A stretch of DNA of 64,000 bases, from contig JAUICH010000006.1 in the NCBI GenBank assembly GCA_030427505.1, forward strand, positions 1 through 64,000, written 5' to 3'. Position 1 is the stretch's first letter. Each line of letters begins with the position of its first letter. This document shows positions 34,511-40,362 of the stretch, piece by piece. A model generated the notes under the pieces. The model ran no database searches. It was given only the letters and a program-made list of their open reading frames with translations, and was not told where the DNA came from. The DNA is from Verrucomicrobiia bacterium. Lineage in GTDB: Bacteria > Verrucomicrobiota > Verrucomicrobiia > Verrucomicrobiales > DEV007. A program made the position numbers and the translations under genes.

Positions 34511-35926
34511 ATGAAAACGCTTGGGAAATGGGGGTTGGGAATGCGGTGGCTGCCGTCGCCGTTCCCGCTGTTGGTGTTCTTGTTTTCGCTGGGGCTGCCG
34601 GGGCTGTCTTTCGGTGAAGAGAAAGGCGGAGGGGAGGCGCTGGACTGGGACAGCCTGGAGCCGGCGGCTCCGCTGCATCTGATGGGCTCGGCGGTGAAAC
34701 TGAGGGACGCGCTTTTTGAAGTGTACTTGTTTGAGGACGAGCGGCGGAATCAGTTCTACGACTCGAATCGCGGGTTTTTCATCAGTGATGATGGCTTTGC
34801 GATCTGCCCCCTATTTCCCGTGTGTGTCGGACGCCAACTGGGGTTTGGAGTGATAGAGGCGGGTAAAGGAGGCGTGCCCACGCTGCTGGAGGCGCCGGTG
34901 GTGTATGGGCTGTTTCCGGAGGCGGATCTGGCGCTGGTGAAGTTCGAGCACCGGCCGGCGGGGCACCTGTCCCTGGCGGCGCGGGACGTGCCCCTGGGGA
35001 CGTGGGTGGCGCACCTGACGCCACCGGGACTCACGACGCCGGAGTATGGACCGGTGCTATTCCACGGCCGCACGGCGGTTGCTAGCGCGGACTGGCTGAA
35101 GGGTGTCGTGGATCCTGTGAAACGCTACAGCATTGCCCTGCCGCGGAGGAGGAATGACAGCGAGGTCTATCGCCAGGGTGAGCCGCTGGTCGACGAGAGC
35201 GGTGAGGTGGTGGCGGTGCTGGTGGGCTTCGGGAACCTGGGAATCCAGACCTTGCGCTATGGGGTGCCGGCGAACGAGTTCCGGGACCGGGTGGATGACG
35301 CCATGCGGGAGGGGAAGCCGATGACGCTGCCGCTGCCGGAGGCGGTGAACCCGTACGATCCGGCGCGGCTGGATCCGATGTACTTGGCGTACGGGGGCGC
35401 CATGCTGGGCGGGCGGGTGGCGGAGGCCCGGGGTATCCTGGAGTCTCTGTCGGAGAAATACCCGGACAGCGTGGGCGTCCGGAACGAGCTGTACCGGTTT
35501 GGATTCCAGACCCTGGAAGCGATGAAGGAGGCGGGCGCCCCGGACTGGGAAGCGCAGGCGAACCGGCTGCTGGTGGAGGTGGTGACTCACCGGTATGCGA
35601 AAACGGATCCGCTCTGGAGGCAGGCCCGGTACCATCAGCGTCTGGGCGCGCTCTATCGCCTGTCTGACAAGGAGGAGGATGCGGTCCGGGAACTCACACT
35701 GGCGGACAAGTTGGACCCGGACTGTCAGGCGTGTGTGGACCTGGCCGTCTTCTACCAGGTCCGGGGTGATGAGGAGCAGGCAAAGCACTACCTGGAGCGC
35801 GCGGCGGAGCGGTGGCCGGACCACATTGGCTTTTGGGTGGAGCTTGGAAAGATGTCGGAAGGGGAGGCCCAGAGGACGTGCTTCGGCCGCGCGCAACTGC
35901 TCCGTTCGCTGTATGGCGCGAAGTAG
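34511..35926 (+). CDS. Secreted trypsin-fold pseudoprotease with TPR repeats
   Basis: 471 residues from the ATG at 34511, the start that gives a proper signal peptide (about 1-34). A trypsin/HtrA-like fold (about 50-270) is suggested by NRGFFISDDGFAICP (normally reaching a TNHHV-type His), EADLALVKFEH (Asp position kept) and YRQGEPLVDESGEVVAVLVG (normally GNSGGPLV). Catalytic His and Ser are both replaced, so no peptidase activity is expected. The C-terminal half (about 290-471) is TPR-like helical repeats ending CFGRAQLLRSLYG. A paralogue lies at 38647-40362. Probably a periplasmic binding scaffold. Confidence 0.7.
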   Translation: MKTLGKWGLGMRWLPSPFPLLVFLFSLGLPGLSFGEEKGGGEALDWDSLEPAAPLHLMGSAVKLRDALFEVYLFEDERRNQFYDSNRGFFISDDGFAICPLFPVCVGRQLGFGVIEAGKGGVPTLLEAPVVYGLFPEADLALVKFEHRPAGHLSLAARDVPLGTWVAHLTPPGLTTPEYGPVLFHGRTAVASADWLKGVVDPVKRYSIALPRRRNDSEVYRQGEPLVDESGEVVAVLVGFGNLGIQTLRYGVPANEFRDRVDDAMREGKPMTLPLPEAVNPYDPARLDPMYLAYGGAMLGGRVAEARGILESLSEKYPDSVGVRNELYRFGFQTLEAMKEAGAPDWEAQANRLLVEVVTHRYAKTDPLWRQARYHQRLGALYRLSDKEEDAVRELTLADKLDPDCQACVDLAVFYQVRGDEEQAKHYLERAAERWPDHIGFWVELGKMSEGEAQRTCFGRAQLLRSLYGAK

Positions 35927-36085
35927 GAGAGGCACGGGAGGAGGGGGCGATGGAAGTTCAACTGATATCCGAGGCGGAAGGGGCCACCAGCGCTACTTCG
36001 AGCACTTGTCGTCGATGATGTTGATCTACCCGGACGATTTCGAAACTTCCGATCGCTGAAATGGCTCCAAGATACCTGAGACCTT

Positions 36086-36628
36086 CTATCTGATTGTATC
36101 TATGACCAAGAGGTTGAGATCCTGCATTTCCATACGTGCCAAATGTTCAGGCATTTCCACGCAATCTATTTTTCCGTAGTGGGCGGTGAACTTGAAGAAC
36201 TTTCGGTCTCCGGGTTTGGCGTCAACTTCCACAAGGTCCACCCTAGCCTTTCCCTTCCAGACATCTCCAAAAACCAGTTCACTTTTCGAGTTGCTTGAAA
36301 TGCCCATGCCACCATAGACGTCGCTCAAGTCTGGGAAGATTGTCAGATTTCCTGGTTCCGTAATTACGTAAAAGAAGGAATTGGACCGGAGTGCCCCCAC
36401 GATCTGGTCGTTTAATCTGACCGGTATGGACAGCGCGGCGGCCCGTACCTGTGGTTCGCGGTAAAAGCACACCAGAACTTGCCCGCCGACCACGGCGGAA
36501 TCGGGTAGTTGCATGGCGGAGAATTTGGTGATCGAAACGGTTGATGGTCCGCCGCAGCCAAATAGCAAGAGGATCGAACAAAGGCAAACGGATCGAAGGC
36601 TTCCTTTTTGTAGTGAGCTTAATGTCAT
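36086..36628 (-). CDS. DUF2846-like lipoprotein
   Basis: 180 residues from the ATG complement at 36626-36628, which gives a normal lipoprotein signal with lipobox LLLFGC; a start 15 codons earlier is possible. The core reads QVLVCFYREPQVRAAALSIP, then VRLNDQIVGALRSNSFFYV and EPGNLTIF. This is the DUF2846 pattern of a short beta-sandwich with small-molecule or peptide display. Follows a paralogue on the same strand with a gap of about 100 bases. Function unknown; exported and lipid-anchored. Confidence 0.65.
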   Translation of the reverse strand: MTLSSLQKGSLRSVCLCSILLLFGCGGPSTVSITKFSAMQLPDSAVVGGQVLVCFYREPQVRAAALSIPVRLNDQIVGALRSNSFFYVITEPGNLTIFPDLSDVYGGMGISSNSKSELVFGDVWKGKARVDLVEVDAKPGDRKFFKFTAHYGKIDCVEMPEHLARMEMQDLNLLVIDTIR

Positions 36629-36727
36629 AGGGTTGTAGTACCGGTTGAAGTTCATGAGCACGCTGTATGGCATGCAGTGGGGGAGGCGAGACGGCGGGTT
36701 GTGGACCGCCTGGACAAGCCGTCTCCG

Positions 36728-37285
36728 CTAACGGATGCGGTTCATCGTCACGAGGCTGAGGCCTTTCATGTCCTGCTGGGCGCGTGCTTCGGTGACGGCC
36801 TCGCAGGTCCATGCCCATCTGCCTTCCAACAGTGAATCTGCTCCATAGGAAACGCGGACATAGTAGATCTCTCCCGCGGCGGCGTTCATCTTCAGGACCC
36901 TTGAATAGACGCGCGTGCCCAGGGCGCCGCCATAGACAATCTGGTTGTCGTTTTGCCTGACGATCGACATCTTGTGGGAGCCTGACCCGTCTGCGTGGAT
37001 CACTTTTTCCCCTGGATCACAAATCTGGAAGAAGTAGCAGTGAGGGGAAAGGGCCCCGGCCAGTTTCCCATTTATCTGGACAGGCATGGTGACCGCGCCA
37101 CCCAGGAGGGTCTGTTCGCGATAGAAATAGATGAGGGCCTGGTCTTTGTAAAGAGACGCGTCCGGCGGTTGGGTGGGAGAGACGGTCCCCTGATGGATCG
37201 CCACGGTATTGGGTCCCAGCAGGCAGCCGGGGAGGGTCAGGTGCAGGGGTAGGAGGATCAGCAGGTTCCGGAGTCTCTTGGTCAT
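36728..37285 (-). CDS. DUF2846-like lipoprotein, paralogue
   Basis: 185 residues. Lipobox LTLPGC (about 16-21) after a basic hydrophobic signal. The core ALIYFYREQTLLGGAVTMPV, QINGKLAGALSPHCYFF and DPGEKVIHADGSG matches the DUF2846 layout, as in the downstream gene, and both end with a closing IR. Lies 55 bases downstream of the caspase-like gene on the same strand, so the three may be co-transcribed. Function unknown. Confidence 0.68.
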   Translation of the reverse strand: MTKRLRNLLILLPLHLTLPGCLLGPNTVAIHQGTVSPTQPPDASLYKDQALIYFYREQTLLGGAVTMPVQINGKLAGALSPHCYFFQICDPGEKVIHADGSGSHKMSIVRQNDNQIVYGGALGTRVYSRVLKMNAAAGEIYYVRVSYGADSLLEGRWAWTCEAVTEARAQQDMKGLSLVTMNRIR

Positions 37286-37340
37286 GTGAAGGGGAATGCT
37301 TTTATTTCTTAGATTTAGAGTTAGAAAGCCCGGCGGCTGG

Positions 37341-38504
37341 TCAGGGGACCATGACTGGTTTCCCGGAGAAGGGGCAGGTCATGACGTCGCCCGAGCGTTT
37401 GCCGCGCCCGTCGACCAGGCCCTGGCCGGGCGCGTAGGGGCTGAGGTAGAGTCCCGCCCGTCCGGAGGGAATCAGTTTTGCGGCGTTTCGCGGCATACTG
37501 CTGGTGGTGGTGGCGGAGGGCTCAGGCTCTGGAGAGGTAGGCCGTGGGGCGGAGGTGGTCTGAGGGGACGCGGGCGCGGGTACCGGCTCTGGCCGCGGCT
37601 TTGCCGGGGAACTTGTTACCATGGTGGTGGTTGCGGGGGGCTCCGGCTCAGCTGGCCTGGGTGGAGCGCTGTCCGATTGGGGGGGGGCTGGAATGTCCAG
37701 TGACCCGGGGTTGAGTGACAGGAGGCGAAAGGTCCGGCCTGCTCCGTCGAAGTTGAACCACGGCACCTGGCGCTCGTTCGTGGTGGCGGCGACGGCGTCG
37801 CTGACTTCGAGGAAGGCGTCGAACGCGCTGACGCCCGGCCGGGCCAGGTGCTGGAGGAGCGCGGTGGTGAAGGGGCTGTTTCCGGTTGTGCCGTCCAGGG
37901 CGACCTCTCCGGGCGAGCTGGCGAACATGATCATGGTCGCTTTTGGAATGGAGGCGTCCGGCAGGGCGCTCAGTCCGCCGGTAAAGGTGGCCCGCGTGGT
38001 CAGCCAACCGCGGGTCAGGGGATTGTTCCGGCAGCAGTCCAGAATGAGTAGTTTAGCGGGCAGCCCGCAGGCGTTCATGTCTTCGAGCACAGCATCCAGG
38101 GAAACGGTCTGAGTCCTGAGCTGGGCGGCGGAGGTGAGCTCGGCATCCGTGGGCAGCAGGTAGTTTTTTCCGGCCACTTCCATGCCGTGTCCCGCGTAGT
38201 AGAACAGGCCCATGCTGGCTCCGGTGGCCTGGGCCTTGAAGGATTCCAGCCCCTCGAACATCTTGTCCACCCCAGCGTCCTGAACGGTGATGACCTTGAA
38301 ACCCACGCCTTCCAGGAGCTTGGCGATGGCGGCTGCGTCCCTGGAGGGATTGGGGAGATCCTGCGCATGCTGATAGTCGCCATTTCCCACAACCAGGGCG
38401 ACGCGATCTTCCGCCCGCAGTTGCTGGCCGGCGGAGACTAACAGAATGGCGAAAAACCACAGGAGCCCTTTACGGTTCCAATTGTGAATGTTTCCAAAGT
38501 TCAT
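37341..38504 (-). CDS. Secreted caspase-like (peptidase C14) protein
   Basis: 387 residues. Signal peptide (about 1-31, ending LRAED), caspase p20-like domain (about 33-270) with RVALVVGNGDYQ, catalytic His106 (YYAGHGMEV) and catalytic Cys158 in LDCCRNNP. A Pro/Thr/Ser-rich linker (about 275-345) leads to a conserved C-terminal module, LYLSPYAPGQGLVDGRG then CPFSGKPVMVP. Both catalytic residues are present, so cleavage after Arg/Lys or Asp is possible. The export signal puts it in the periplasm or beyond, unlike cytoplasmic defence caspases. Divergent from the pseudoprotease at 38647 (142-base gap). Confidence 0.88.
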   Translation of the reverse strand: MNFGNIHNWNRKGLLWFFAILLVSAGQQLRAEDRVALVVGNGDYQHAQDLPNPSRDAAAIAKLLEGVGFKVITVQDAGVDKMFEGLESFKAQATGASMGLFYYAGHGMEVAGKNYLLPTDAELTSAAQLRTQTVSLDAVLEDMNACGLPAKLLILDCCRNNPLTRGWLTTRATFTGGLSALPDASIPKATMIMFASSPGEVALDGTTGNSPFTTALLQHLARPGVSAFDAFLEVSDAVAATTNERQVPWFNFDGAGRTFRLLSLNPGSLDIPAPPQSDSAPPRPAEPEPPATTTMVTSSPAKPRPEPVPAPASPQTTSAPRPTSPEPEPSATTTSSMPRNAAKLIPSGRAGLYLSPYAPGQGLVDGRGKRSGDVMTCPFSGKPVMVP

Positions 38505-38646
38505 CGGGAGTGAACCTATTCGCTTTCAGCGCGCTCCGTCAAGGCCAGCTGCCCCCTGGCAGGGCATTGTAACCGCCTTTCATTTGGGATTGACCGTGCT
38601 GTCTATTTTTCGCCCACTGATCGCGGCGCTCGGAGCCTGTTCTAAC

Positions 38647-40362
38647 ATGAAAACTTTCGTGAGTCTGTGTGTGGGCTGGTTCATTCTACACGGGTGGGGC
38701 GCCGCGACACGGGCGGTGGAGGCGGTCACGGCCTGGAATGTGAAGACGGTGGAGTACGCCACGGGGGCGTTCCGGATGGTGCCGGCGGAGGCGGGGGCGA
38801 CGGTCTGGTGGGTGGAGGCGAATGAGAACGGGGACTTCCACTTTACCGAAGTGCGGCGGGATGAGGCGGCGGTTTACCTGCGGGATGAGGGCCGGGACTA
38901 CAACCTCATCCTGAACCTGGCGGAGAAACGGATTCTGCTTAGCAAGGGAAGCACGCGGCCGGAGGAGGCGCGCGTGCTATATACCATTACCCAGGTAAAG
39001 GGCGGGGAGGGAGCTCCGATGGAGCAGACCGAGGCATCTCCGCCTGGCGAGGGTGGGGAGGACGGCGATCCCACGAAACTAGACTGGGACGGGCTGAAGG
39101 AATTTCCGCCGGTGGAACTGGTGGCGGCGGCATCGAAGCTGAGGAAGGCGGTCTTTGAGGTGTTTCTATTCAGGGGCGGGAAGCGGGATCAGTACCACAC
39201 GGCGTATCGCGGGTTCTTCATCCGTGCCGATGGCCTGGCCGTCTGCCCTTTGTCTCCCCTGTGTCTGAGCGGCGGCCAGGTGGAGTTTGGGACGAAGACG
39301 TCCGGGGGCGTGATGGTCTCGCTGAAGGCGCCCGCCGTTTACGAGACGTTTCCGGAGCTAGACCTGGCCCTGGTGAAGTTCGAGCACCAGCCGGCGCGGC
39401 ACCTGACCTTCGCGCCGGAAGGGGTGGGCCTGGGTACGTGGGTGGCACTCCTGACTCCTCCGGAAGATCCTGCTCCGGTGATGGGGCCGGTTCTCTACCA
39501 CGGCACGGCGGCTCCGGCGGCGGGGGAATGGCTGAAGGAGGAGGTGGAGATCCAGGAATGCTACAGCCTGGGGCTGCCGCGGGGGAGCCGGGATACGGAC
39601 ACCTACCGCATGGGGGCGCCGGTCGTGAATGAGAAGGGGGAGGTAGTGGCGGCGTTTGCGGGTTCCCAGCCTGTGGACTTCCAGGTTCTCCGGTTCGGGA
39701 CGCCGCTGGCTGGTTTCGGGGAGCGGGTGGAAGCCTCCCTCCAGGCGCCGGTGCCTGTCGCCCTGCCGCTTTCGGAGGCGGACAATCCCTACGTGCCCGC
39801 CTGGAGGGACCCGGCGTATGAGGCGATGGGCAACGCCATGATGAGGCAGCGGTTTGGTCAGGCCCGCCAGCACCTGGAAACGCTCGCGAAGCGGTATCCT
39901 GATACCGAAGCGCTCAACAGCTTGGCCTACGATATTGGTAACGCGGAGTTGCAGTCGCAGTTGCGCTGGGGGGCGACGAATACTGGTGCTCTGGCGGAGA
40001 AGCTGGTGGCGCTGGCCCAGGAACGGGAGGTGCTGGACGAGGCCCCGGACTGGAAACGCGCGCGGTATCACCTGAACCTGGGCATGGCTTACCAGGAAGC
40101 TCAGCAGGCTCCAGAGGCGATCCGGGAACTGACACGCGCGGACGAGTTGTTTCCGGAGTGTCAGGCCTCCATGAATCTGCGCGATGTATACCGCTTTCTG
40201 GGTGACCGGGAGAAGACCCGGCAGTACCTGGAACAGGTGGTGGAGACGTGGCCTTCACGGATTGAATGCTGGGTGGAACTCTCGAAATACTTGGAGGGGG
40301 AAGCCAGCGAGGCGTGCATCCGCCGGGCGCAATTGCTCTGCAAGTTCTATGGGGTGCAGTAA
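38647..40362 (+). CDS. Secreted pseudoprotease with TPR repeats, larger paralogue
   Basis: 571 residues from the ATG at 38647, giving a signal peptide (about 1-24). An N-terminal module of about 90 residues (AWNVKTVEYATGAFRMVP to NLAEKRILLSKG) is absent from the paralogue at 34511. Then comes a trypsin-like fold (about 155-370): YRGFFIRADGLAVCPL without His, ELDLALVKFEHQ with the Asp position, and MGAPVVNEKGEVVAAF with Ala in place of Ser. TPR-like helices follow, ending CIRRAQLLCKFYG. Both paralogues lost the same two catalytic residues, so this is a family trait. Divergent from the caspase-like gene. Confidence 0.72.
   Translation: MKTFVSLCVGWFILHGWGAATRAVEAVTAWNVKTVEYATGAFRMVPAEAGATVWWVEANENGDFHFTEVRRDEAAVYLRDEGRDYNLILNLAEKRILLSKGSTRPEEARVLYTITQVKGGEGAPMEQTEASPPGEGGEDGDPTKLDWDGLKEFPPVELVAAASKLRKAVFEVFLFRGGKRDQYHTAYRGFFIRADGLAVCPLSPLCLSGGQVEFGTKTSGGVMVSLKAPAVYETFPELDLALVKFEHQPARHLTFAPEGVGLGTWVALLTPPEDPAPVMGPVLYHGTAAPAAGEWLKEEVEIQECYSLGLPRGSRDTDTYRMGAPVVNEKGEVVAAFAGSQPVDFQVLRFGTPLAGFGERVEASLQAPVPVALPLSEADNPYVPAWRDPAYEAMGNAMMRQRFGQARQHLETLAKRYPDTEALNSLAYDIGNAELQSQLRWGATNTGALAEKLVALAQEREVLDEAPDWKRARYHLNLGMAYQEAQQAPEAIRELTRADELFPECQASMNLRDVYRFLGDREKTRQYLEQVVETWPSRIECWVELSKYLEGEASEACIRRAQLLCKFYGVQ

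Follow-up and report, generated by a model that had tools for sequence, protein, structure and literature searches.

An exported-type caspase whose C-terminal module also occurs on lipoproteins, with lineage-specific neighbours, in a Verrucomicrobiia bacterium

Bacterial caspases have mostly been discussed as cytoplasmic enzymes of death or defence, and the eukaryotic paracaspase MALT1, a scaffold protease that bears death and Ig domains, is found in the cytoplasm. The prokaryotic caspase homologues, also called metacaspases or orthocaspases (MEROPS C14), were surveyed in 2012, when OmpA was found in 14 operons and FGE-sulfatase, Sel1, TPR and peptidoglycan-binding architectures, amidase fusions and N-terminal helices, possibly signal peptides, were described (PMC3501461). 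A survey of the Baltic Sea found metacaspases to be absent or rare in Verrucomicrobia (PMC4933709), a group to which the present genome belongs. In the EACC1-caspase and vWA-MoxR ternary systems, caspases and trypsins, some of them inactive, are used as modules (PMC7159879).

The locus lies in a window of 64,000 nucleotides of a Verrucomicrobiia bacterium (GenBank assembly GCA_030427505.1, contig JAUICH010000006.1, positions 1 to 64,000), by which we mean the whole stretch of DNA that was analysed. The window caspase belongs to a set of about 20 caspases that its genome appears to export and, with the five genes together nowhere else among the genomes searched, does not define a new conserved system. 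A first-pass annotation had proposed five genes as a possible undescribed envelope system, and the five open reading frames were confirmed at the coordinates it gave. The genes and their parts are as follows.

34511 to 35926, plus strand: pseudoprotease-TPR protein 1, 471 aa (collinear homology, TPRs)
about 34640 to 35371, plus strand: peptidase-like region of pseudoprotease 1, followed by TPRs at about 35372 to 35923
36086 to 36628, minus strand: DUF2846-like lipoprotein 2, 180 aa (PF11008 below cut-off; BLASTP to lipoprotein 1)
36728 to 37285, minus strand: DUF2846 lipoprotein 1, 185 aa (PF11008)
37341 to 38504, minus strand: caspase-fold protein of exported type, 387 aa (PF00656, H106/C158, tail)
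37344 to 37469, minus strand: C-terminal module (tail), caspase residues 346-387, common to lipoproteins of related genomes
37749 to 38405, minus strand: caspase domain (Peptidase_C14, PF00656)
38412 to 38504, minus strand: signal-peptide-like N-terminus of the caspase (MNFGNIHNWNRKGLLWFFAILLVSAGQQLRA; hydropathy, A-type cleavage motif)
38647 to 40362, plus strand: pseudoprotease-TPR protein 2, 571 aa, divergent from the caspase
about 38734 to 39051, plus strand: extra N-terminal domain of pseudoprotease 2 (residues 30-135)
about 39073 to 39807, plus strand: peptidase-like region of pseudoprotease 2, followed by TPRs at about 39808 to 40359

Third-position GC is 0.74-0.81 in four of the five genes, matching the high value of the genome, and is weaker (0.57) in lipoprotein 2. 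As had been described, the two lipoproteins, both with clear hydrophobic N-termini, lie downstream of the caspase on its strand, with gaps of 55 bp between the caspase and lipoprotein 1 and 99 bp between lipoproteins 1 and 2, and the caspase is probably co-transcribed with them. Both pseudoprotease genes are on the plus strand, outside this trio, and 142 bases separate the start of pseudoprotease 2 from that of the caspase, the two genes being divergent. Lipoprotein 1 matches PF11008 with 44.3 bits, above the gathering score of 34.3, while lipoprotein 2 falls below it with 22.8 bits; the two are 27% identical to each other (BLASTP 3e-21). A fold search of the PDB with a low-confidence DUF2846 model returned nothing at E < 0.001. 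Among the 57 related genomes searched, the lipoproteins had no match elsewhere and are confined to the window locus.

The caspase is built from the signal-peptide-like N-terminus, a p20-type caspase domain, a proline-rich linker and the C-terminal module of 42 residues. Its description as a secreted caspase-like protein with both catalytic residues holds: the PF00656 match is strong (E 1.9e-36, 126.4 bits, gathering score 21.4), the N-terminus is hydrophobic, and the His/Cys dyad of Peptidase C14 and the prokaryotic caspase homologues is present as His106 in YAGHGM and Cys158 in LDCCRN, which fall on the catalytic residues of MALT1 when the two are aligned. Among solved structures MALT1 is the closest in sequence (1.5e-12), its HG and D-x-C motifs being in register, but it is a cytoplasmic protein of eukaryotes, whereas the window caspase is bacterial and apparently exported. 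Judged from its sequence, the enzyme is most likely a catalytically active, paracaspase-type cysteine endopeptidase, and it probably cleaves after basic residues, a specificity suggested by one aligned Asp of the S1 pocket together with what is known of MALT1. The window caspase shares the domain and the dyad with other prokaryotic caspase homologues, but differs from them in its DUF2846 lipoprotein neighbours and in a C-terminal module that lies outside Pfam and NCBIfam.

That module is undescribed and is the oddest part of the locus. Sequences that match the final 42 residues of the caspase (PSGRAGLYLSPYAPGQGLVDGRGKRSGDVMTCPFSGKPVMVP) stand at the C-termini of unrelated proteins from related genomes. 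With a profile built from eight such C-termini, 39 of the 57 related genomes contain the module, with up to ten matches in each, and in the caspase's own genome it occurs only on the window caspase. Lipoproteins and exported proteins whose linkers are rich in proline make up most of the carriers that were inspected, and the module usually stands at the very C-terminus of the protein, often in two or three copies. Its consensus, SPY(A/G)..LVDV.G...G..V.CP(F/Y)(T/S)GK.F.VP, spans about 42 residues (loci L088-L117 included), and no credible match to it was found in Pfam, NCBIfam or solved structures. We take the tail to be specific to the window copy because its nearest paralogues, at 65-67% identity, bear an FGE-sulfatase domain in its place. 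The module may bind the envelope, and its being common to lipoproteins leads to a specific anchoring hypothesis for the caspase.

Every member of the set had been said to carry an export signal. Export was called from the hydropathy of the N-termini, and the hydrophobic segment is clear in four proteins, namely the caspase, pseudoprotease 1 and both lipoproteins, although the lipobox of lipoprotein 1 (LPGC) is atypical. The signal of pseudoprotease 2 is weak, its N-terminal hydropathy being 1.44 compared with 1.35 in other parts of the protein. The envelope location that had been proposed is supported by these export signals, by the tail shared with lipoproteins and by the OmpA-like and cell-wall proteins that accompany exported caspases across the family. 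The best reading is that the window caspase would be an exported caspase tethered to the envelope, with neighbours specific to its lineage.

The genome holds 20 full-length caspases and one fragment. All 20 keep the His and Cys in the same columns as H106 and C158, and all 20 start with an export-type hydrophobic segment ahead of the caspase domain, as judged by hydropathy. FGE-sulfatase domains are present on most of them, while the remainder have YARHG, Sel1 or no other known domain. The caspases form a lineage-expanded set of about 20 putatively exported members whose dyads are intact. A tree of 44 caspase domains places the window copy with two FGE-caspases that lie in tandem on contig C22, the 65-67% identical pair (support 0.87), and joins these in turn to a caspase from another genus (0.96). 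Many exported caspase-FGE (C-type-lectin-like) tandem paralogues are found at several loci (L013-L021), and at L016 (7121-7429, minus strand) an N-terminal caspase fragment adjoins an intact caspase and is probably a decayed duplicate. The two caspase-FGE paralogues closest to the window caspase are followed downstream by two lipoprotein-like trypsins that are catalytically intact (L013, 3403-5483, minus strand). These were considered as a parallel to the pseudoproteases and rejected, since no specific relation was found (hhalign 1.5%). The parallel is also weakened by the lack of significant trypsin-caspase proximity: in ten genomes that carry caspases, 2 of 102 trypsin matches lay within 3 kb of a caspase, compared with 0.69 expected.

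The two flanking proteins had been called a divergent trypsin-fold/TPR protein and its paralogue, both catalytically dead, and these calls can be upheld. They are 45-46% identical to each other (45% over 438 residues), and their TPRs score above the Pfam cut-off. Pfam Trypsin_2 reaches an E-value of 0.026 in pseudoprotease 2, and no trypsin match is seen in pseudoprotease 1. The assignment of a serine protease fold to the pair leans on their collinear homology to active, exported, HtrA-like serine protease-TPR proteins, represented here by two proteins (L074 and L077) from another family of the same class. Peptidase region, linker and TPRs are collinear between the two groups, and a profile of the pair aligns with the active proteins with an hhalign probability of 97% over 366 columns. 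With the TPRs removed, the peptidase part alone scored 27.2, and none of 60 column-shuffled decoys scored above 20.5; for pseudoprotease 2, BLASTP gave 3.9e-6. The window pair differs from the active proteins in its catalytic residues: Phe or Ser (CPLFP/CPLSP) stands in place of the His (TNHHV), and Gln or Met (RQGEP/RMGAP) in place of the Ser (SSGSP), while the Asp of the triad is kept in both. The AlphaFold model of the pseudoprotease was poor (pLDDT 41). We consider the term pseudoprotease with TPRs to be right because of the collinear homology, the decoy test and the lost His and Ser. The pair would derive from exported serine protease-TPR proteins by loss of catalysis, and most likely binds peptides or partners. 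A TPR protein from a related genome (L022) also carries the N-terminal domain of pseudoprotease 2 (38734-39051, plus strand).

The annotation's larger claim, of an undescribed system of several genes, does not stand. The two pseudoprotease matches in the own genome are both at the window locus. No full-length pseudoprotease was found in the 57 relatives, where two partial matches covered the N-terminal domain or the TPRs only, nor in 384 genomes of the class, where the matches were TPR-only or active serine protease-TPR proteins. A scan of GTDB contigs with a degenerate pattern (about 85,000 genomes) found none either; its single match (L072) was rejected as an ordinary DegP-like protease. In 20 caspase neighbourhoods from the relatives, local searches found neither pseudoproteases nor lipoproteins. 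The recurring neighbourhood of caspase and pseudoprotease that such a system implies was thus absent from the genomes searched, which included no member of the same genus, and in the relatives neither the pseudoproteases nor the lipoprotein pair recur with a caspase or at all.

These results bear on what the five genes might do together. We lean, by a little over even odds, towards an active, envelope-held caspase of the paracaspase type with lipoprotein operon partners, flanked by dead proteases that bind peptides or partners. The exported caspase would cleave proteins in the periplasm or at the cell wall, where the C-terminal envelope module on its proline-rich linker would hold it; the two DUF2846-type lipoproteins could be its local partners or regulators, and the catalytically dead TPR proteins beside it may bind peptides or partners. 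Somewhat short of an even chance, and compatible with this explanation of the caspase itself, is a neighbourhood that arose by accident, in which a minus-strand cassette of caspase and lipoproteins was inserted between tandemly duplicated pseudoprotease genes of unrelated function. The pseudoprotease paralogues are indeed co-oriented and flank a trio on the opposite strand, close caspase paralogues stand at another locus without pseudoproteases, and the five-gene set does not recur in the genomes searched, none of which was of the same genus.

The dedicated periplasmic protease module that was first proposed, with an active caspase, dead TPR scaffolds and lipoprotein anchors, we now regard as unlikely. 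The cluster is compact, the caspase and pseudoprotease 2 start divergently, export signals are present and other conflict systems are known to contain trypsin domains that are inactive (PMC7159879); however, the set failed to recur in the relatives, the class or the GTDB scan, and trypsins are not significantly enriched near caspases. Quite unlikely, too, is a genus-restricted relay, in which an anchored paracaspase would be controlled by the dead trypsin-TPR scaffolds and the DUF2846 lipoproteins, all of the caspases being extracytoplasmic and serving cell-wall surveillance or remodelling. Membership of the locus in a defence system already known from the cytoplasm or membrane, of the EACC1-caspase, vWA-MoxR ternary or CHAT/TPR type, is highly improbable. 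Caspase, trypsin-like and TPR themes do recur in such systems (PMC7159879), and there are weak matches to NF047832 and to the caspase model of PADLOC, but the former scores 74 bits against a cut-off of 140, PADLOC finds only its generic caspase model at the locus, EACC1, vWA, MoxR and NTPase partners are absent among the neighbours scanned, and the parts carry export-type N-termini.

The neighbours of exported caspases point to the envelope. In ten genomes, OmpA-family matches lie at most 3 kb from a caspase in 10 of 76 cases, where genome size would lead one to expect 0.54 (Poisson P 4e-10, which is approximate, as the genomes were chosen for having caspases and matches within a genome are not fully independent). 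The window caspase itself has no OmpA-like neighbour. The association of OmpA with caspases is a known theme (PMC3501461) and is stronger here. Other caspase neighbours include a D-Ala-D-Ala carboxypeptidase (M15_4) and Amidase_3 at L015 and L056. Twenty exported-looking caspases, together with OmpA-like, cell-wall and serpin neighbours in the family, argue for an extracytoplasmic biology of these enzymes. In a genome of the same order, an exported caspase is fused to a PG_binding_1 domain (L067, 13094-14488, plus strand), and in the same genome as the window a serpin (PF00079, 3.8e-71; L016, 8665-10137, minus strand) has an exported caspase on one side and an OmpA-like gene on the other.
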